A stretch of DNA of 64,000 nucleotides from Sanguibacter hominis ATCC BAA-789 (lineage in GTDB: Bacteria; Actinomycetota; Actinomycetes; Actinomycetales; Cellulomonadaceae): positions 496,001 through 560,000 of the forward strand of contig NZ_JAAXOW010000001.1 in NCBI RefSeq assembly GCF_012396185.1, given 5' to 3'. The number at the start of each line of letters is the position of its first letter. Position 1 is the first letter of the stretch. Positions 5,517 to 29,957 of the stretch are shown here, in pieces. The position numbers and the translations under genes are program-made. A model generated the notes under the pieces. The model made no database searches. It was not told where the DNA came from and saw only the letters and a list, made by a program, of their open reading frames with translations.

Positions 5517-6509
<993 letters not shown>

Positions 6510-6579
6510 TCAACTCCCTCGTCGTCGTGCCGCACGCGACCCGCCGATCAGGCGGGACGCCTTGTCCCATCATGCCAAC

Positions 6580-6611
6580 AGCGGCCTGCCCGGGAATCCG
6601 GACAGGCCGCT
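6580..6611 (-). terminator. Terminator hairpin of icd
   Basis: Inverted repeat AGCGGCCTG / CAGGCCGCT closes a 14-base loop. It sits 17 bases downstream of the icd stop and before the mdh leader. Confidence 0.7.
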
Positions 6612-6627
6612 GCTGATCAGGTTCCGC

Positions 6628-7848
6628 TCAGGCCGCGAGACGGGCCGAGAGGTTCTCGTCGAGCGCTGCGAGGAACTCCTCCGTCGTCAGCCACTCCTGC
6701 TCCGGACCGATGAGGAGCGCGAGGTCCTTGGTCATCTTGCCGGACTCGACCGTCGTGATGACGACGTCCTCGAGGGTCTCCGCGAACGTGACGACCTCGG
6801 GGGTGGCGTCGAGCTTGCCTCGGTGCATGAGGCCGCGCGTCCACGCGAAGATCGACGCGATCGGGTTCGTCGACGTCGGCTTGCCCTGCTGGTGCTGGCG
6901 GTAGTGCCGGGTCACCGTGCCGTGCGCCGCCTCGGCCTCGACGGTCTTGCCGTCGGGCGTCATGAGGACCGACGTCATCAGGCCGAGCGAGCCGAAGCCC
7001 TGCGCGACCGTGTCCGACTGGACGTCGCCGTCGTAGTTCTTGCAAGCCCAGACGTAGCCGCCCTCCCACTTCATGGCCGAGGCGACCATGTCGTCGATCA
7101 GGCGGTGCTCGTAGGTGAGGCCGGCAGCGTCGAACTGCTCCTTGAACTCCGCGTCGAAGACCTCCTGGAACAGGTCCTTGAACTGACCGTCGTAGGCCTT
7201 GAGGATCGTGTTCTTCGTCGAGAGGTAGACCGGGTAGCTGCGCTGCAGGCCATACGCGAAGGACGCGCGGGCGAAGTCCTTGATGGACTCGTTGAAGTTG
7301 TACATGCCCATCGCGACACCGCCCTCCTCGGGGAACGTCACGACCGTCTGCTTGATCTCCTCGGAGCCGTCGGCAGGCGTGTACGTCAGCGTCAGCGTGC
7401 CCGCGCCGGGGACCTTGAAGTTGGTCGCCTTGTACTGGTCGCCGTGAGCGTGACGCCCGATGATGATCGGCTTGTTCCAGCCCGGGACCAGGCGCGGGAT
7501 GTTCGAGATGATGATCGGCTCGCGGAAGACGACGCCACCGAGGATGTTGCGGATCGTGCCGTTGGGCGAGACCCACATCTTCTTGAGGCCGAACTCCTCG
7601 ACGCGCGCCTCGTCAGGCGTGATCGTCGCGCACTTGACGCCGACGTTGTACTGCTTGATCGCGTTGGCGGCGTCGATCGTCACCTGGTCGTCGGTCGCGT
7701 CGCGGTTCTCGATCGACAGGTCGTAGTACTTGAGGTCGATGTCGAGGTACGGGTGGATGAGGCGGTCTTTGATGAACTGCCAGATGATGCGCGTCATCTC
7801 GTCGCCGTCGAGCTCGACTACCGGGTTGACGACCTTGATCTTGCCCAT
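6628..7848 (-). CDS. icd: NADP-dependent isocitrate dehydrogenase (homodimeric, eukaryote-like subfamily)
   Basis: Oxidatively decarboxylates isocitrate to 2-oxoglutarate, producing NADPH in the TCA cycle. The N-terminus [20 protein letters not shown], the [12 protein letters not shown] loop, and the [16 protein letters not shown] region with its metal-binding aspartates place it in the roughly 405-residue dimeric subfamily rather than the E. coli type or the monomeric actinobacterial type. I chose the ATG at 7848 over the in-frame GTG at 7854. A GGAG lies 10 bases before the ATG but only 4 before the GTG, and family members begin at this Met. A 14-bp palindrome 57 bases upstream recurs before sucC. 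Confidence 0.96.
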
Positions 7849-7904
7849 GCGCACGGATCTCCTGTGTGTCTGCGGGGGGTTTCCTCGGCCGAGCCTATCC
7901 GATT

Positions 7905-7918
7905 TCTTGACGTCAAGA
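7905..7918 (-). promoter_or_regulatory. Palindromic candidate operator upstream of icd
   Basis: Perfect palindrome TCTTGACGTCAAGA, 57 bases before the icd start. It matches the sucC-upstream palindrome TCTCGACATCGAGA with the consensus TCTYGACRTCRAGA. A shared TCA-cycle transcription factor is inferred; I cannot name it from sequence. Confidence 0.55.
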
Positions 7919-8040
7919 TAGTTCGTGCGGCGTGGACCAGCGCACGTCCTGGTGCCACACTCAGGCAGTGCTCAGCCCATGGTGAGAGCATCCAGCGACC
8001 CACCGGACGCCCCAGACGGGGCCCCACAGACAGGACACGC

Positions 8041-8994
8041 ATGTCGACGACAGCGCCCGAGACCGACCTCGGCCTCACGAACGACCTCCCGGACACGCCG
8101 GGCCTCCTCTCCCGGATGGGCGCCGAGGTCTTCGCCACCTTCGTGCTCGTGCTGCTCGTGGGCGGCGCCGCGGTCTACTCCTCGATCAACGTCATCGGCA
8201 CGGGCACGCTCGGCGTCGCCCTCGTGGCCGCGGCCGCCGTCGCCGCAGCAGGGTCCGCCGTGTCGCGCGTGTCCGGCGGGCACCTCAACCCGGCCGTGAC
8301 GCTCGGCCTCGCCGTCGCCGGCCGCTTCTCCTGGCGCGACGTGCTCCCCTACTGGCTCGCGCAGCTCGTCGGCGGCGCCCTCGGCGGCCTCACGATCTTC
8401 CTCGCGACCCCGCAGTCGTTCGGGACGGCGCTCCAGCTCGAGACGCAGCGCGACGTCGTCTCGATCGCCGCGAACGGCTTCGGTGCGCACTCCCCCGTCG
8501 GGCGCATCTCCGAGGGTGCGATCGACGTGTCCCTGCAGAACGCGCTCATCGTCCAGGCGATCGCGGCGGCCGTCCTCGTCGGCGTCTACCTCGGTGTCAC
8601 CGGCCGCCGGTCGTGGGCAGCGAACCCCCTCGTGCTCGTCGGTCTCGTCTTCGGTGGCCTGATGGTCGTGACGATCCCGCTCACCAACGGCGGCATCAAC
8701 CCCGCGTCCTCGTTCGGCATCGCGATCTTCTCGACGTCGTGGGCGCTGTCGCAGCTCTGGCTGTTCGCGGTCGCGCCGCTCGTCGGAGCGGTCGTCGCCG
8801 GTGCCTGCTACCGGCTCGTCGTGACCGAGGTGCCCCCGGCGCTCCTCGACCCCTCCGGCGAGGAGGACGCAGCGGTCGCCGCCGACGCGGGCATGCTGGT
8901 CGACGCCGAGCCCGACGTCGAGCCCGGGGCCACGACCGACGTCACGACCGACGCCGAGGCAACGGACGAGGAGCCCACGGCTCCGCGCGACTGA
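8041..8994 (+). CDS. MIP-family channel (aquaporin/glycerol facilitator-like) with atypical second NPA loop
   Basis: Six-helix membrane channel, 317 residues. Both half-helix motifs are present: HLNPAV at about 81-86 and GINPAS at about 218-223. The conserved arginine that normally follows the second NPA and forms the selectivity filter is replaced by serine (NPASSFG). Substrate specificity therefore cannot be assumed to be water or glycerol. Helix 1 is near residues 28-50. The last 55 residues form an acidic, Thr/Asp/Glu-rich cytoplasmic tail unusual for the family. The ATG at 8041 is the first Met in frame with family-like sequence. The gene stands alone, divergent from icd and convergent with the DUF3017 gene, with a shared hairpin between. 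Confidence 0.88.
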   Translation: MSTTAPETDLGLTNDLPDTPGLLSRMGAEVFATFVLVLLVGGAAVYSSINVIGTGTLGVALVAAAAVAAAGSAVSRVSGGHLNPAVTLGLAVAGRFSWRDVLPYWLAQLVGGALGGLTIFLATPQSFGTALQLETQRDVVSIAANGFGAHSPVGRISEGAIDVSLQNALIVQAIAAAVLVGVYLGVTGRRSWAANPLVLVGLVFGGLMVVTIPLTNGGINPASSFGIAIFSTSWALSQLWLFAVAPLVGAVVAGACYRLVVTEVPPALLDPSGEEDAAVAADAGMLVDAEPDVEPGATTDVTTDAEATDEEPTAPRD

Positions 8995-9017
8995 CGCACC
9001 AGCACCACGCCTCACAG

Positions 9018-9053
9018 CGACGGCCGCCACCCCGTACGGGGCGGCGGCCGTCG
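9018..9053. terminator. Bidirectional terminator between channel gene and DUF3017 gene
   Basis: A 16-bp stem with one A-C mismatch and a GTAC loop lies between two convergent stop codons, so it can serve both genes. Confidence 0.7.
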
Positions 9054-9070
9054 TCGTCCCAAGGCTGCGG

Positions 9071-9412
9071 CTAGATCTGCGGTGCGGTCACGGCGATCAC
9101 GGTGATCGCGGCGCACAACGTCCAGAACAGACCCACGTCGAAGATCCGCGAGCGGATCGCCAGCCCCGCGACCGGCTCCGACGCCACGAGCCGCACGCCA
9201 CCGCACACGGCGAGCTGCGCGGCAAGCACGAGCGCGGCGATCCGGGAGCCGACCACGAACGCGAGCACGCACACGACGACGATCATCGCGATGTTCGCCC
9301 AGATCCACAGATTGCGACGCGGGGCGATCGCCCGCGAGGCCGCAGCGACGTCGTCGACCGGGACGCGTCCGGCGTCGACCTCGGGGTCGTCGCCCGCGCT
9401 CGTCTGCTCCAC
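9071..9412 (-). CDS. DUF3017 family membrane protein
   Basis: Small membrane protein of unknown function, 113 residues from this start. A polar N-terminal stretch precedes three hydrophobic helices: WIWANIAMIVVVCVLAFVV, then AALVLAAQLAVCGGVRL, then a C-terminal helix ending in IAVTAPQI. DUF3017 proteins are actinobacterial and often lie near mdh or folD. I chose the GTG at 9412 because a perfect GAGGAG lies six bases upstream. A GTG at 9463 is also in frame and would add 17 residues, but would leave only 17 bases to the divergent reductase start. No enzymatic motif is seen. Confidence 0.82.
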   Translation of the reverse strand: MEQTSAGDDPEVDAGRVPVDDVAAASRAIAPRRNLWIWANIAMIVVVCVLAFVVGSRIAALVLAAQLAVCGGVRLVASEPVAGLAIRSRIFDVGLFWTLCAAITVIAVTAPQI

Positions 9413-25011: not shown

Positions 25012-25662
25012 TCAGGAGCGCGTGACGGGCACCTCGGTCACGGTGGGGAAGCCCGGTACGTCGACGGAGACCGTCGTGGTCGCTGGATCGAGCGGCGGCA
25101 GCGTCGCGTACACCGTGACCCAGTCACCGTCGAGCGTCTTGGGCGAGGCCGAGCACAGGCAGAACGTGCCGTCAGGCGGCGTCTTCCCTTCGGCAAGACC
25201 GAGGTAGGGCAGCAGCACCGTCTGCGCGGCCGGGTCGGTGACCGACAGGTCACGGACGTCCATGGTCAGCGGGGACCACTCGTTGAACGCGTCGAGCGGA
25301 ACCGTCTCCTCGGCTCCGGACGTCGTGCGCAGCGTGACAACGAGCCGGGTGCTCGACTCCCCTGCCTCGACCGCGACGACACCGGCCTGCGCGTCGAAGG
25401 TTCCGTCGCCGGTGTCGGGGATCTCGCCCTCGACGACCTTCATCGGCTCCGTCTCGCCGACCTGCTCCCCCGCCATCGCCTCGACGTCGGCGACGGTCGG
25501 GCCCTCGAGCTCGGTAGCCGTGGCCCCGGGAGTGGGCGTGCTCACCGAGCCAGATGCCGTGGGTTCGGGCGCGTCGTCGCCCGTGCAGCCCGCGACGAGA
25601 AGTGCCGCGGCGAGGAGGCAGAGCGCTCCGCGCGCCCTCTGGGCGCTTCTCGGCGTGGTCAT
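25012..25662 (-). CDS. Putative lipoprotein sharing a domain with the adjacent OmpA-like protein
   Basis: A 216-residue exported protein. A signal peptide ends in the lipobox LVAGC (Cys near 25), followed by a Thr/Pro/Ser linker and a beta-rich domain (about 75-216). The end of that domain (TVYATLPPLDPATTTVSV, near 181) closely resembles the middle of the upstream OmpA-like protein (VVYAMLPELPASTTTVDV, near 140), so the two share an unnamed module. The start codon overlaps the upstream stop by one base (TGATG), implying coupled translation. No known function. A Cys-rich CLCS sits near 171. Confidence 0.82.
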   Translation of the reverse strand: MTTPRSAQRARGALCLLAAALLVAGCTGDDAPEPTASGSVSTPTPGATATELEGPTVADVEAMAGEQVGETEPMKVVEGEIPDTGDGTFDAQAGVVAVEAGESSTRLVVTLRTTSGAEETVPLDAFNEWSPLTMDVRDLSVTDPAAQTVLLPYLGLAEGKTPPDGTFCLCSASPKTLDGDWVTVYATLPPLDPATTTVSVDVPGFPTVTEVPVTRS

Positions 25663-26702
25663 CACTTCGCCACCTCGTAGTCGACGGTCACGCGCCGGTT
25701 CTTCGCCTTGCCCGCGTCCGTCCCGTTCGAGGCGACGGGCTCCGACTGACCGCGCCCCGCGACCGTGATCGTGACGCCCGGCACGGTCGTCGTGATGAGG
25801 TCCGCGACCGTCTGGGCGCGGCGCTCCGACAGCTCCTCGTTGCCGATCCGCTCGTCCGGGACCGAGTCTGTATGACCCGTGACCTTGACCGTGGTCGCGC
25901 CGCGCTCCGCGATCGTCTTGCCGAGCGCCTCGACCTTGGCCTTGCCCTTGGCTGACAGCGTCCACTCGCCCGACGCGAAGAAGAAGTCGGCGGCGAGGTT
26001 GACCGAGACCTCCTCGGTCGTCTCCTCGGTCGTCGTCGCCTCCTCGGTGTCCGCGACGCGCGACATGAGCGCGAACGTCGACCGTCCAGGGTCCGCGGAC
26101 GCCACGACGTCGGCGGGAGGAAGGGCCGGCCATCCCTCGCCGAGCGGGACGAGATCGCTGTCCACCGCGGGTTCCAGCGCGCCGTCCTCGACCGGGACGT
26201 TCGTGACGCTCACGCCCCACTCGAGCTGGACGTCCACCGTCGTCGTCGAGGCGGGCAGCTCGGGGAGCATCGCGTACACGACGACGAGACGGCCCGGGTC
26301 TGCCGTCAGCTTCGTCGTGTCGGACACGAGACCGCCAGATCCCTCGACGATCAGCGGACGGTACGCCGTCAGCCCGACAGGGTCCGTCACCGTCACGGCC
26401 GCCGCCTGGCCGATCTTGAAAGGGTGCGTGCCTGGCTGGAACGCGAGGTTCGTGCGCAGCTGCGCGCCCGACGCCGTCGCTGTTCCCACCGAGTAGTACA
26501 CCGCCGTCGCACCAGGGACCCGCCGCACGGCGTGCACGGCACCGACGACCCGGACGCCCGACGCCTTGCCGAAGTGCGGATAGGTGAAGGTCCCAGCGAC
26601 CGGAATCTCGGGTGCCGCGGGAGCCCCCTCGCCGGCTGCCTGGGTCGCGCCGAGGGTGAGGCCGACCAGGACGGTCGCTGCCACGAGCCATGTGCGTCTC
26701 AC
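25662..26702 (-). CDS. Secreted OmpA-family protein
   Basis: A 346-residue exported protein. The signal peptide is MRRTWLVAATVLVGLTLGA, with cleavage near 26. A novel beta-rich domain spans about 35-200, followed by a Thr/Glu linker (TEEATTTEETTEE) and a C-terminal OmpA-like peptidoglycan-binding domain (about 235-346) with VTGHTDSV, NEELSERRA and the terminal NRRVTVDYE. It probably tethers to the cell wall. I chose the GTG at 26702 because it starts a clean signal peptide; an ATG at 26750 is also in frame. It is coupled to the lipoprotein gene that shares its middle domain. Confidence 0.87.
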   Translation of the reverse strand: MRRTWLVAATVLVGLTLGATQAAGEGAPAAPEIPVAGTFTYPHFGKASGVRVVGAVHAVRRVPGATAVYYSVGTATASGAQLRTNLAFQPGTHPFKIGQAAAVTVTDPVGLTAYRPLIVEGSGGLVSDTTKLTADPGRLVVVYAMLPELPASTTTVDVQLEWGVSVTNVPVEDGALEPAVDSDLVPLGEGWPALPPADVVASADPGRSTFALMSRVADTEEATTTEETTEEVSVNLAADFFFASGEWTLSAKGKAKVEALGKTIAERGATTVKVTGHTDSVPDERIGNEELSERRAQTVADLITTTVPGVTITVAGRGQSEPVASNGTDAGKAKNRRVTVDYEVAK

Positions 26703-26798: not shown

Positions 26799-27281
26799 TC
26801 AGGTCAGCAGCACGCCGACGACCCAGGCGCCCGCGGCGACGAGCGCACCCGCGAGCTCGACGAGGATCGTGATGCCCGTCGCGTGCAGCGCGACGCGCGT
26901 CGCAGCCCACGCGGCCTGAGCGTCCTTGCGGCGGGCGAGCTCGGCGAGGAACACTCCGAGAGGGAACCCGAGCAGCAACCCGACGACAGGGACCACGAAG
27001 AACCCGACGATGCCGACGACGGCGCCCCACACGAGCGTCGAGCCGGGGACGTCCGCCTTGCGCAGGTGCTTCCCGGCGAGGACGTACTTGCCGACGGCCG
27101 CGAGCGCGACGGCCGCGACGCCCACGGCGAAGGCGGTCCACGCGACCCAGCCGCCCGTGAGGATCGCCCAGACGACCACGGCGCCGAGCACGATGAGCGA
27201 GCCCGGCAGGACCTGGACGACGACACCGACGAGCCCGAGCAGCACGACCAGCCCGACGAGCACCTCTCCCCACGCATCCAC
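26799..27281 (-). CDS. DUF456 family membrane protein
   Basis: A 160-residue polytopic membrane protein. Glycine-rich hydrophobic helices surround the family-typical LPGSLIVLGAVVVWA (near 25-40), and a later glycine-rich segment reads GLLLGFPLGVFLAEL. DUF456 proteins are widespread and functionally unassigned. The start is ATG. It stands between the OmpA-like gene and a small membrane protein gene, all on the minus strand; the 112 bases before it hold the terminator of the next gene. Confidence 0.87.
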   Translation of the reverse strand: MDAWGEVLVGLVVLLGLVGVVVQVLPGSLIVLGAVVVWAILTGGWVAWTAFAVGVAAVALAAVGKYVLAGKHLRKADVPGSTLVWGAVVGIVGFFVVPVVGLLLGFPLGVFLAELARRKDAQAAWAATRVALHATGITILVELAGALVAAGAWVVGVLLT

Positions 27282-27805: not shown

Positions 27806-28498
27806 TCACAGGAGCTTTCGTGCGGCCGCCCACCGCGTCAGCTCGTGCCGGGACGACAGCTGCAGCTTGCGCAGCACCGCCGACACGTGCGTCTCGACGG
27901 TCTTGATCGAGATGAACAGCTCGCTCGCGACCTCCTTGTACGAGTAGCCGCGCGCGATCAGCCGCATGACCTCCTGCTCGCGGGCCGAGAGCCGGTCCAG
28001 CTCGTCGTCGTGCACAGCGACGTCCGCCGCAGCCGTCCCGAACGAGTCCAGCACGAAGCCCGCGAGGCGCGGCGAGAACACCGCGTCGCCCGACGCGACC
28101 CGCACGACGGCGTCCGACAGCTCCGGCCCCGAGATCGCCTTGGTCACGTACCCGCGAGCGCCCGCCCGGATGACCGCCACGACGTCCTGCGCCGCGTCAG
28201 AGACCGACAGCGCGAGGAACCGCGTCACCGAGCGGACGTCCTCGCAGCGCGCGAGCACCTCGGCACCGCCGCCACCCTGCCCGCCCGGCAGGTGCACGTC
28301 CAGCAGCACGACCGACGGCCGCAGCCGCGAGACGAGCTCGACGGCCTCGTCGACGTCCGACGCCTCCCCGACGACGCGCACGCGTCCGTCGAGGCTCGCC
28401 CGGACACCAGCCCGGAACATCAAGTGGTCGTCCACCAGCACGACGTCGACCGGGAGACCCTCCCCGTCCCGCACCTGCGCCGACACCTGATCGTTCAT
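27806..28498 (-). CDS. NarL/LuxR-family response regulator (LiaR-like)
   Basis: A 230-residue regulator. The receiver domain (about 16-140) has the acidic pair in VVLVDDHLMFRAGVRASL and the phospho-acceptor Asp in VVLLDVHLPGG, followed by a switch region with ALSVSD and the Lys in GYVTKAI. The C-terminal LuxR helix-turn-helix is LSAREQEVMRLIARGYSYKE onward, ending KTVETHVSAVLRKL. It lies 133 bases downstream of the PspC-kinase gene on the same strand and is its likely partner. I chose the ATG at 28498, the first Met next to the receiver fold. Candidate binding sites are the CAGGGTC repeats upstream of the kinase. Confidence 0.93.
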   Translation of the reverse strand: MNDQVSAQVRDGEGLPVDVVLVDDHLMFRAGVRASLDGRVRVVGEASDVDEAVELVSRLRPSVVLLDVHLPGGQGGGGAEVLARCEDVRSVTRFLALSVSDAAQDVVAVIRAGARGYVTKAISGPELSDAVVRVASGDAVFSPRLAGFVLDSFGTAAADVAVHDDELDRLSAREQEVMRLIARGYSYKEVASELFISIKTVETHVSAVLRKLQLSSRHELTRWAAARKLL

Positions 28499-28631
28499 CG
28501 CCCGCTCTTCCCGTACAGCCACCCGCGCGCCGATCGGCGCACCGGGACCACCGTACCGGGACACAGGGAGGCAGTGGAGGGCATTGCGACTGGTCAGGCG
28601 GCCAGGCCGCCGCAGGGCGCGTCGCGGCCGG

Positions 28632-29957
28632 TCAGCCCTCCGCGCTGCCCGGCGTCGGCGCGCCGACCGGGTCGTCGCGATGGATCGGCACGCTCAGGTG
28701 CACCTCGGTGCCCCGCTCCGGGCGGCACGTGATCGTCGCCTCCCCGCCACGACGCCGCACCCGGCCGAAGATCGACTCGCGCACCCCGAAGCGGTCCGAA
28801 GGGACCTGGTCGAGGTCGAAGCCCTCGCCACGGTCCCGCACGAACACCTCCGCGCGGTCGTCACGCACCTCGAGGTACAACGACACGGGGGGGCGGCCGT
28901 GCGCGACCGCGTTGACGAGCGCCTCGCGCGTAGCCTGCAAGAGCGCCGTCGTCGCCGCCGTCGGCACCCCGTCGCCGACGACGACCGTGTCGATCACCGC
29001 CGACGACGCCGTCTCCTCGTCGTCACCCCGACGGCCGTCCTCGACCTCCGCGACGAGCGCGCGCAGCTGCGCCGCGATCGACGTCCCCTCAGGCGGACGG
29101 TCCGCGTACAGCCACTCGCGCAGCTCACGCTCCTGCGCACGCGCGAGACGCGCGACGTGCTCCGGCCGGTCCGCCGAGCGGCGGATGAGGGCGAGCGTCT
29201 GCAGCACGGAGTCGTGCAGGTGCGCCGCGATGTCCGCACGCTCCGACTCGCGTGCACGTGCCTCCTGCTCCGACCGCAGCTGCCGCACCAGCCGCACCCA
29301 CCAGGGCGCGAGCACGAGCGCGAGGCCCGCGATCACCGCGACTGCCGCGACCGCCGCGTCGACCACGACCACCCACGGCCGGCCGCCACCGACGAAGAGC
29401 AGGACGCCGACGAGGACGAGCAGCAGCCCGCCCGCGAGCTGGAGCAGCCCGTTCGGCGACCGCCCGCCCGCACGCGACAGCCAACGGCCGCGCTCGACCG
29501 AGTCGAGCTGCCCCCACGCGAGCGCGGCGCCCGCCACGACGATCATCGTCGGCAGCACCCACTTCACGTCGACGTGATGACCCGTGCGGTCGGCGACGAG
29601 GAGGACCGCACCCGTGAGCAGCAGGGCACCGACCGCGACGTCCTTGACCGGGATCGACCGGAACCGCTCCTGGAGGGAACGGCTGAGCCGCTGCGCCGAG
29701 ACCGGCTGCGCGCTGCGCGCCGCCTCGGCCGGGTCCCCCTCGGGGACGAACAACCACAGGAAGAGGTAGAGCGCAGGGCCGGTCCCGCCGACGAGGGTCA
29801 ACGCGACGAAACCCAGACGGACGAGCCGCACGTCGAGCGTGAGATGGGCCGCGAGACCTGAGGCGACACCGCCCACCCATCGGCCACGGCGCGGCCGCCG
29901 CAACGGCAGCCCGCCGGTGCGGGCCGCCGGTCCGACGCGGGGCGGAGGTGCGTTCAT
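28632..29957 (-). CDS. Sensor histidine kinase with N-terminal PspC domain (LiaS-like)
   Basis: A 441-residue membrane kinase. A PspC domain (about 20-80, GRWVGGVASGLAAHLTLDVR) precedes four to five further helices to about 235. The HisKA_3 dimerisation region follows, with the phospho-acceptor His in AAHLHDSVLQTLALIRR (near 255). The HATPase ends with ATREALVNAVAHG (N-box) and RDRGEGFDLD. PspC fusion to a kinase is typical of actinobacterial envelope-stress systems of the LiaS type. It is divergent from a second PspC gene, with heptamer repeats between. The signal is presumably membrane stress. Confidence 0.93.
   Translation of the reverse strand: MNAPPPRVGPAARTGGLPLRRPRRGRWVGGVASGLAAHLTLDVRLVRLGFVALTLVGGTGPALYLFLWLFVPEGDPAEAARSAQPVSAQRLSRSLQERFRSIPVKDVAVGALLLTGAVLLVADRTGHHVDVKWVLPTMIVVAGAALAWGQLDSVERGRWLSRAGGRSPNGLLQLAGGLLLVLVGVLLFVGGGRPWVVVVDAAVAAVAVIAGLALVLAPWWVRLVRQLRSEQEARARESERADIAAHLHDSVLQTLALIRRSADRPEHVARLARAQERELREWLYADRPPEGTSIAAQLRALVAEVEDGRRGDDEETASSAVIDTVVVGDGVPTAATTALLQATREALVNAVAHGRPPVSLYLEVRDDRAEVFVRDRGEGFDLDQVPSDRFGVRESIFGRVRRRGGEATITCRPERGTEVHLSVPIHRDDPVGAPTPGSAEG

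Follow-up and report, generated by a model that had tools for sequence, protein, structure and literature searches.

The Tad machine of Caulobacter includes CpaD, an outer-membrane lipoprotein with an OmpA-like fold whose proposed role is the anchoring of the secretin on peptidoglycan (PMC13170226). Tad loci have also been described in actinobacteria, among them tadZABC-flp-tadEF of Mycobacterium tuberculosis (PMC9531140) and the locus of Micrococcus luteus (PMC4322843); no anchor module of the OmpA or lipoprotein kind is described in either full text, and a search confined to the open literature found no account of such a module for the Tad loci of actinobacteria. The Tad literature cited here does not explain how a Tad pilus gets through a thick Gram-positive wall without a secretin. 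Each of the three elements involved, OmpA-type anchors, Tad loci and Ig-like lipoproteins, is already known.

The window analysed here, a stretch of 64,000 nucleotides from Sanguibacter hominis ATCC BAA-789, carries on its minus strand two overlapping genes for exported proteins, as the preliminary description had stated. We refer to the module common to the OmpA protein and the lipoprotein as DOM, and the features of the pair are as follows:

25662..26702, minus strand: OmpA-family exported protein of 346 aa, with a GTG start at 26702 and the stop at 25664-25662
26622..26702, minus strand: signal peptide region, roughly residues 1-27 of the OmpA protein, with RR, a hydrophobic run and AxA, from sequence reading only
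26052..26612, minus strand: DOM-N, the N copy of the shared module, with the linker after it, residues 31-217, from profile comparisons
26229..26282, minus strand: end motif VVYAMLPELPASTTTVDV of the OmpA protein, from the translation
25695..25982, minus strand: OmpA domain (PF00691), residues 241-336, with D279 and R295 kept, from Pfam and alignment
25660..25664, minus strand: TGATG stop/start overlap of the pair, from the nucleotide sequence
25012..25662, minus strand: lipoprotein of 216 aa, with ATG at 25662 and a predicted lipid-modified Cys26 in an LVAGC lipobox
25015..25500, minus strand: DOM-C, the C copy of the shared module, residues 55-216, with a CLCS (Cys-x-Cys-Ser) motif, from profile comparisons and the model
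25063..25116, minus strand: end motif TVYATLPPLDPATTTVSV of the lipoprotein, from the translation

Within TGATG, the stop of the OmpA gene and the start of the lipoprotein gene have one base in common. Nine relatives have a four-base overlap (ATGA or GTGA), and start and stop overlap in 10/10 pairs read at base level. Given the four-base overlap in so many relatives, translational coupling of the two genes is likely, and likely old. The lipobox occupies residues 22-26 of the lipoprotein, and its cysteine is invariant in 10 relatives (the lipobox was judged by eye). PF00691 matches the OmpA protein with 57.5 bits against a cut-off of 27.2 (E 1.7e-15, positions 1-98 of 98), and for the lipoprotein neither Pfam nor NCBIfam gives a family above its cut-off.

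The proposal that both proteins contain a common domain had been drawn from their near-identical end texts and a VTDP motif upstream, which are present in both. The domain itself is clear by several routes. BLASTP aligns the two window proteins directly (E = 4e-6, 39% over 75 aa), and hhalign matches the two family alignments, built from 11 OmpA-side and 10 lipoprotein relatives, at 97% and E 5e-11 across 112 columns; for the modules alone the result is 97% and E 1.3e-10. This profile-profile comparison had been named beforehand as a possible refutation, and it detected the similarity. Cross-detection also exceeds chance, since the OmpA-side profile scores 22.8 bits on the lipoprotein module against a maximum of 14.6 among 1,000 shuffles; conversely, the lipoprotein profile gives the OmpA module 20.7 bits, with a maximum of 10.9 among 1,000 shuffles. 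When the OmpA-side profile was run blind against 394 genomes of the class, it matched the lipoprotein gene of the window genome (E 2.4e-4). The end motif does belong to the region of similarity, as had been described, but the true extent is about 112 residues (about 56-173 of the OmpA protein and 95-215 of the lipoprotein) and not the end motif alone. Judged from these profiles, DOM-N and DOM-C are homologous. The OmpA partner at locus L078 has the CLCS motif that is typical of the lipoprotein side, and CxCS is missing from several DOM copies. For the module, too, Pfam and NCBIfam gave nothing above cut-off (one relative has a weak DUF5067 match), a PDB sequence search with it yielded no family, its profile matches lying mostly in the lipobox region, and a search of viral contigs found no relatives. 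Signal-peptide matches swamped a search of the class with the full lipoprotein alignment, and its tally was set aside.

The duplication is old. In a tree of 66 DOM copies (139 columns, with long branches and a weak deep order), the 10 C copies (97/88) and 11 N copies (99/80) of the window's type form separate starred groups, each covering three families, and the picture is broadly similar in family f35. Because N and C copies separate in this way, the duplication is older than those lineages and the copies have not been homogenised; on this tree, at least three families diverged after it. The suggested origin of the pair by domain duplication is thereby supported and can be placed early.

Models of the two modules were made from two-sequence alignments (the window and L003 only). 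That of the lipoprotein module reached a pLDDT of 59.5, with core strands at 70-84; that of the OmpA-side module reached 41, and a fold search with so poor a model gave noise and was set aside. Strand order is similar in the two models, both of low confidence. With the low-confidence lipoprotein model, the best Foldseek match was MPT63 (1lmi; probability 0.97, E 0.03), and VIA-align placed 3fbq, YxkC, 4les, YcdA, MPT63 and YjhA at the top with Z of 8.1-6.7, a range that is possibly background. Several of these top matches are, as we take them, DUF4352-type secreted Ig-like domains. These matches hint consistently, short of proof, that DOM is a beta-sandwich and probably Ig-like, and sequence profiles (Pfam, NCBIfam) gave no match above cut-off between it and MPT63/DUF4352-like families.

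Searches with the lipoprotein and with the OmpA protein were run separately in 99 relatives, and both reached adjoining genes in G000, G003, G005, G020, G021 (two copies), G028, G046, G058 and G064. In G091 the lipoprotein gene is present and overlapping, though missed by the similarity search; in G098 the OmpA gene lies at a contig edge; and in G020 the lipoprotein gene (L072:5077-5445) is truncated by stop codons, its OmpA partner being intact. Among wider kin the pair is adjacent and in the same order wherever the first gene is off the contig end. The expectation that the two genes would co-occur was borne out by this neighbourhood survey, in which they are neighbours almost without exception.

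A further 28 loci were fetched across the class Actinomycetes by DOM profiles, giving 38 usable loci that are not phylogenetically independent of one another. DOM is tied to an OmpA domain in 36/38, and since the class loci were chosen by DOM and not by OmpA, this linkage is a finding that the selection did not build in. The most frequent arrangement is the two-gene DOM-OmpA|DOM of the window (20/38), followed by DOM|OmpA (10/38), in which the lipoprotein gene precedes one for an OmpA protein with no DOM detected; the four Streptomyces-like loci L153-L155 and L167 are of this kind. DOM-OmpA-DOM occurs as one chain in 4/38, and DOM-DOM-OmpA and DOM|OmpA-DOM in 1/38 each. The fusion of the modules to a single OmpA domain in one chain is a feature that the preliminary description missed; the DOM-OmpA-DOM layout is constant whether one chain or two carry it. 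Only two of the 38 loci (L165 and L166) have no OmpA, and there DOM forms the outward-facing end of Ser/Thr kinases.

Two of the relatives deserve separate mention. In the membrane Ser/Thr kinases, DOM is the external C-terminal domain and has the CxCS motif (L165:3432-6414, with two in tandem; L166:3608-5053). Locus L073 has three OmpA-domain proteins within 9 kb beside a Flp-like pilin (584-2176, 5811-7495 and 7561-9141), a set made up of the pair and two single-chain DOM-OmpA-DOM-like lipoproteins of about 530 aa.

The gene neighbours common to the loci are Tad/Flp genes, namely TadB, TadC, TadA, Flp-like pilins and TadE/G-like genes, a linkage of the relatives that is new and was missed at the outset. 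Pfam identifies example neighbours as T2SSF (TadB, TadC), DUF5936 (TadC), T2SSE (TadA) and PF13400 (TadE/G-like, L142); the short pilins, which have no Pfam match, were identified from a prepilin-like sequence. Gene order in L074, L076 and L078 is tadB-tadC-kinase-regulator-flp-tadE/G-like-[OmpA, lipoprotein], so that a NarL-type regulator and a HisKA_3 kinase also lie inside Tad operons. With TadA/B/C profiles and a pilin pattern applied to about 11 kb fetched per locus (about 5.5 kb each way), at least one Tad/Flp gene was found in 19/38 loci against 0/18 arbitrary regions of the same genomes (Fisher p 1.4e-4, with kinship ignored and one control short); in the remaining half of the 38 loci, no Tad gene lies at this distance.

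The reverse test, in which Tad loci were picked by DUF5936 TadC without regard to OmpA and the best locus was taken from each genome that scored clearly above the DUF5936 cut-off, is stronger than the neighbourhood count. The module lies beside the Tad genes in 7/7 DUF5936-type loci (L076, L078, L214, L215, L216, L217 and L219), although the DOM matches of L215 are weak (E 3.5e-5 and 0.0025). Since L076 and L078 were known through the pair and L219 overlaps the known L151, four of the seven loci are fully independent. A single-chain DOM-OmpA-DOM of about 450-530 aa is found in 5/7, and the others have the split pair. In L218, L220 and L221, three Tad loci of a different type whose DUF5936 scores are borderline, the module is absent.

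The window's own copy stands alone. No Tad gene lies within 5.5 kb of it, and a DUF5936-type TadC was not found in six genomes of the window's genus, Flavimobilis. The window genome does have Tad-like loci of other types (C1:647-666 kb, C1:283-300 kb and C4:150-168 kb; L193, L194 and L195) and a second, PilB/C-like pilus-type system (C2:498-502 kb), and no OmpA domain was found in any of these. Around the pair lie what we take to be a DUF456-like gene, a 118-aa gene, a two-component system and pcrA. The pair is present in only 3/6 members of the genus; in the three Flavimobilis genomes that have it, it is intact, with 56-80% identity on the OmpA side and the start/stop overlap kept. The order of the DUF456-like gene (window 26799-27281; L071:7509-7991) and the pair is swapped in F. 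rhizosphaerae, the match with 58% identity, which implies that the two genes of the pair moved together. A NarL-type regulator and a PspC-type histidine kinase (window 27806-29957) are conserved beside the pair in Flavimobilis. They were considered as a link to Tad and rejected, because the PspC-type kinase is unlike the Tad-operon kinase and the similarity is generic.

OmpA domains bind diaminopimelate, and D279 and R295, which we take to be the pocket residues for it (by the role of their counterparts in A. baumannii OmpA), are invariant in 11 relatives, while the pocket motif D...LSxxRA is kept in 42/43 copies. The only other OmpA domain in the window genome is that of MotB. MurE of this genome (L169, G000:C1:58752-60170) reads DDPH in place of the DNPR motif, presumably the mark of diaminopimelate-adding enzymes, and this suggests a wall without diaminopimelate in the window's species. 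It is a puzzle that the OmpA-type domains of the pair and MotB are kept, pocket residues included, despite the DDPH of MurE. Flavimobilis is Gram-stain-positive, in agreement with the monoderm-type lineage claimed earlier; accounts of its wall are inconsistent ('meso-A2pm' and 'A4alpha'), and L-lysine is given for the family (PMC6113628). One may speculate that a D-amino acid of the interpeptide bridge could stand in for the D-centre of diaminopimelate.

We assign a probability of roughly 0.58 to the reading that the pair is a two-chain membrane-to-wall anchor, originally part of a Tad pilus, with a stand-alone tether function or some other role in Flavimobilis. The OmpA domain would grip peptidoglycan, the lipoprotein would be held by its lipid in the cytoplasmic membrane, and the two DOM copies would probably bind each other or one common partner, thus joining membrane to wall. 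The main argument for joint action is that DOM copies flank OmpA on either side, in one chain or in two; direct DOM-DOM contact cannot be general, since the OmpA protein of the DOM|OmpA type has no detected DOM. The ancestral setting would be one type of actinobacterial Tad/Flp locus, where the anchor, like CpaD, may have held the pilus base or guided the filament through the thick wall. In Flavimobilis, where it is found alone and no DUF5936-type TadC was detected, the pair may have been kept as a stand-alone tether or may serve another envelope machine. Several points count against the anchor reading: the position of the window pair outside a Tad locus, the failure to find a DUF5936-type TadC in its genus, the half of the related loci with no Tad gene nearby, the DOM|OmpA type, and the DDPH of MurE set beside an OmpA domain of a diaminopimelate-binding family. 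A more far-reaching version, tentative and in our estimate somewhat short of even odds, is that DOM-OmpA-DOM is a defining, hitherto unnamed part of one Tad type of monoderm actinobacteria, that it replaces the secretin and CpaD collar of diderms as a wall anchor, has been repeatedly split and fused, and became a free-standing tether in Flavimobilis.

The occurrence of the pair outside Tad loci, in the window's genus and in several other lineages, would also follow if it were a general envelope tether, a housekeeping link between membrane and wall that some pili happen to need. Such a role is compatible with the module in the extracellular parts of Ser/Thr kinases, which indicates that DOM is not pilus-specific, and yet half of the loci are parts of Tad operons, every tested Tad locus of one type has the module, and OmpA domains are otherwise rare in the window genome; we regard it as doubtful, though as the strongest of the competing explanations. 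The same kinases, in which the module is the external domain in another family, together with the regulator and HisKA_3 kinase found both by the window pair and inside Tad operons, would fit an envelope sensor whose modules read the state of the wall or, through CxCS, the redox state and signal to the two-component system next door. This we consider improbable, given that such gene pairs are widespread, that the window kinase differs in type from that of the Tad operons, that neither window protein spans the membrane, and that the motif is missing from several copies.

If instead the pair were a decaying remnant of a Tad locus lost from the window's genus and had no current function, its patchy presence there, the failure to find the DUF5936-type TadC in any of the six genomes and the lipoprotein gene broken by stops in G020 would be accounted for. 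The intact genes of the three Flavimobilis genomes, with their OmpA-side identity and their overlap kept, and the joint displacement of the two genes with respect to the DUF456 gene, speak against this, and we consider decay the least probable of these readings. On balance the membrane-to-wall anchor is preferred, in line with the pair proposed in the preliminary description. A conserved, predicted wall-binding module in one Tad type makes the question of wall passage testable, and the module is also present in loci apparently from genetically tractable Streptomyces. Beyond pili, DOM is a recurring domain, not covered by Pfam and NCBIfam, that is common to predicted wall anchors and membrane kinases.

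Among known proteins, YiaD, YfiB, PA0833 and the C-terminal domain of OmpA have the same PF00691 domain, whose pocket Asp and Arg are kept in the pair; unlike these, the pair has no beta-barrel and has an N-terminal DOM and a lipoprotein partner. The MPT63/DUF4352-type Ig-like domains (1lmi, YxkC, YcdA, YjhA), likewise secreted or lipid-anchored beta-sandwiches, are the best fold matches to DOM with a low-confidence model, and have no significant sequence match to it. ArfA/OmpATb (Rv0899) of M. tuberculosis is also an actinobacterial protein with an OmpA domain, and its N-terminal domain is BON; membership of the pair in an ArfA-like family was rejected, as the Pfam scan of the pair gave no BON match, and on the ArfA/OmpATb side of the comparison there is no lipoprotein partner of the pair's type. 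The Tad loci of M. tuberculosis and Micrococcus luteus consist of the same machine genes as those that flank relatives of the pair. By analogy of role, the only level at which the two were compared, CpaD is the nearest functional precedent, as it too combines an OmpA-like part, predicted in the pair to bind peptidoglycan, with a lipid anchor and is encoded in a Tad locus, as are many relatives of the pair. CpaD belongs to a diderm, sits in the outer membrane and is bound to the secretin, whereas the pair belongs to a monoderm, involves no secretin, and usually has its OmpA part and its lipid anchor on separate chains, which a duplicated module would link. To our knowledge monoderms have no secretin, and a wall anchor at the base of the pilus would be the monoderm counterpart of secretin anchoring.
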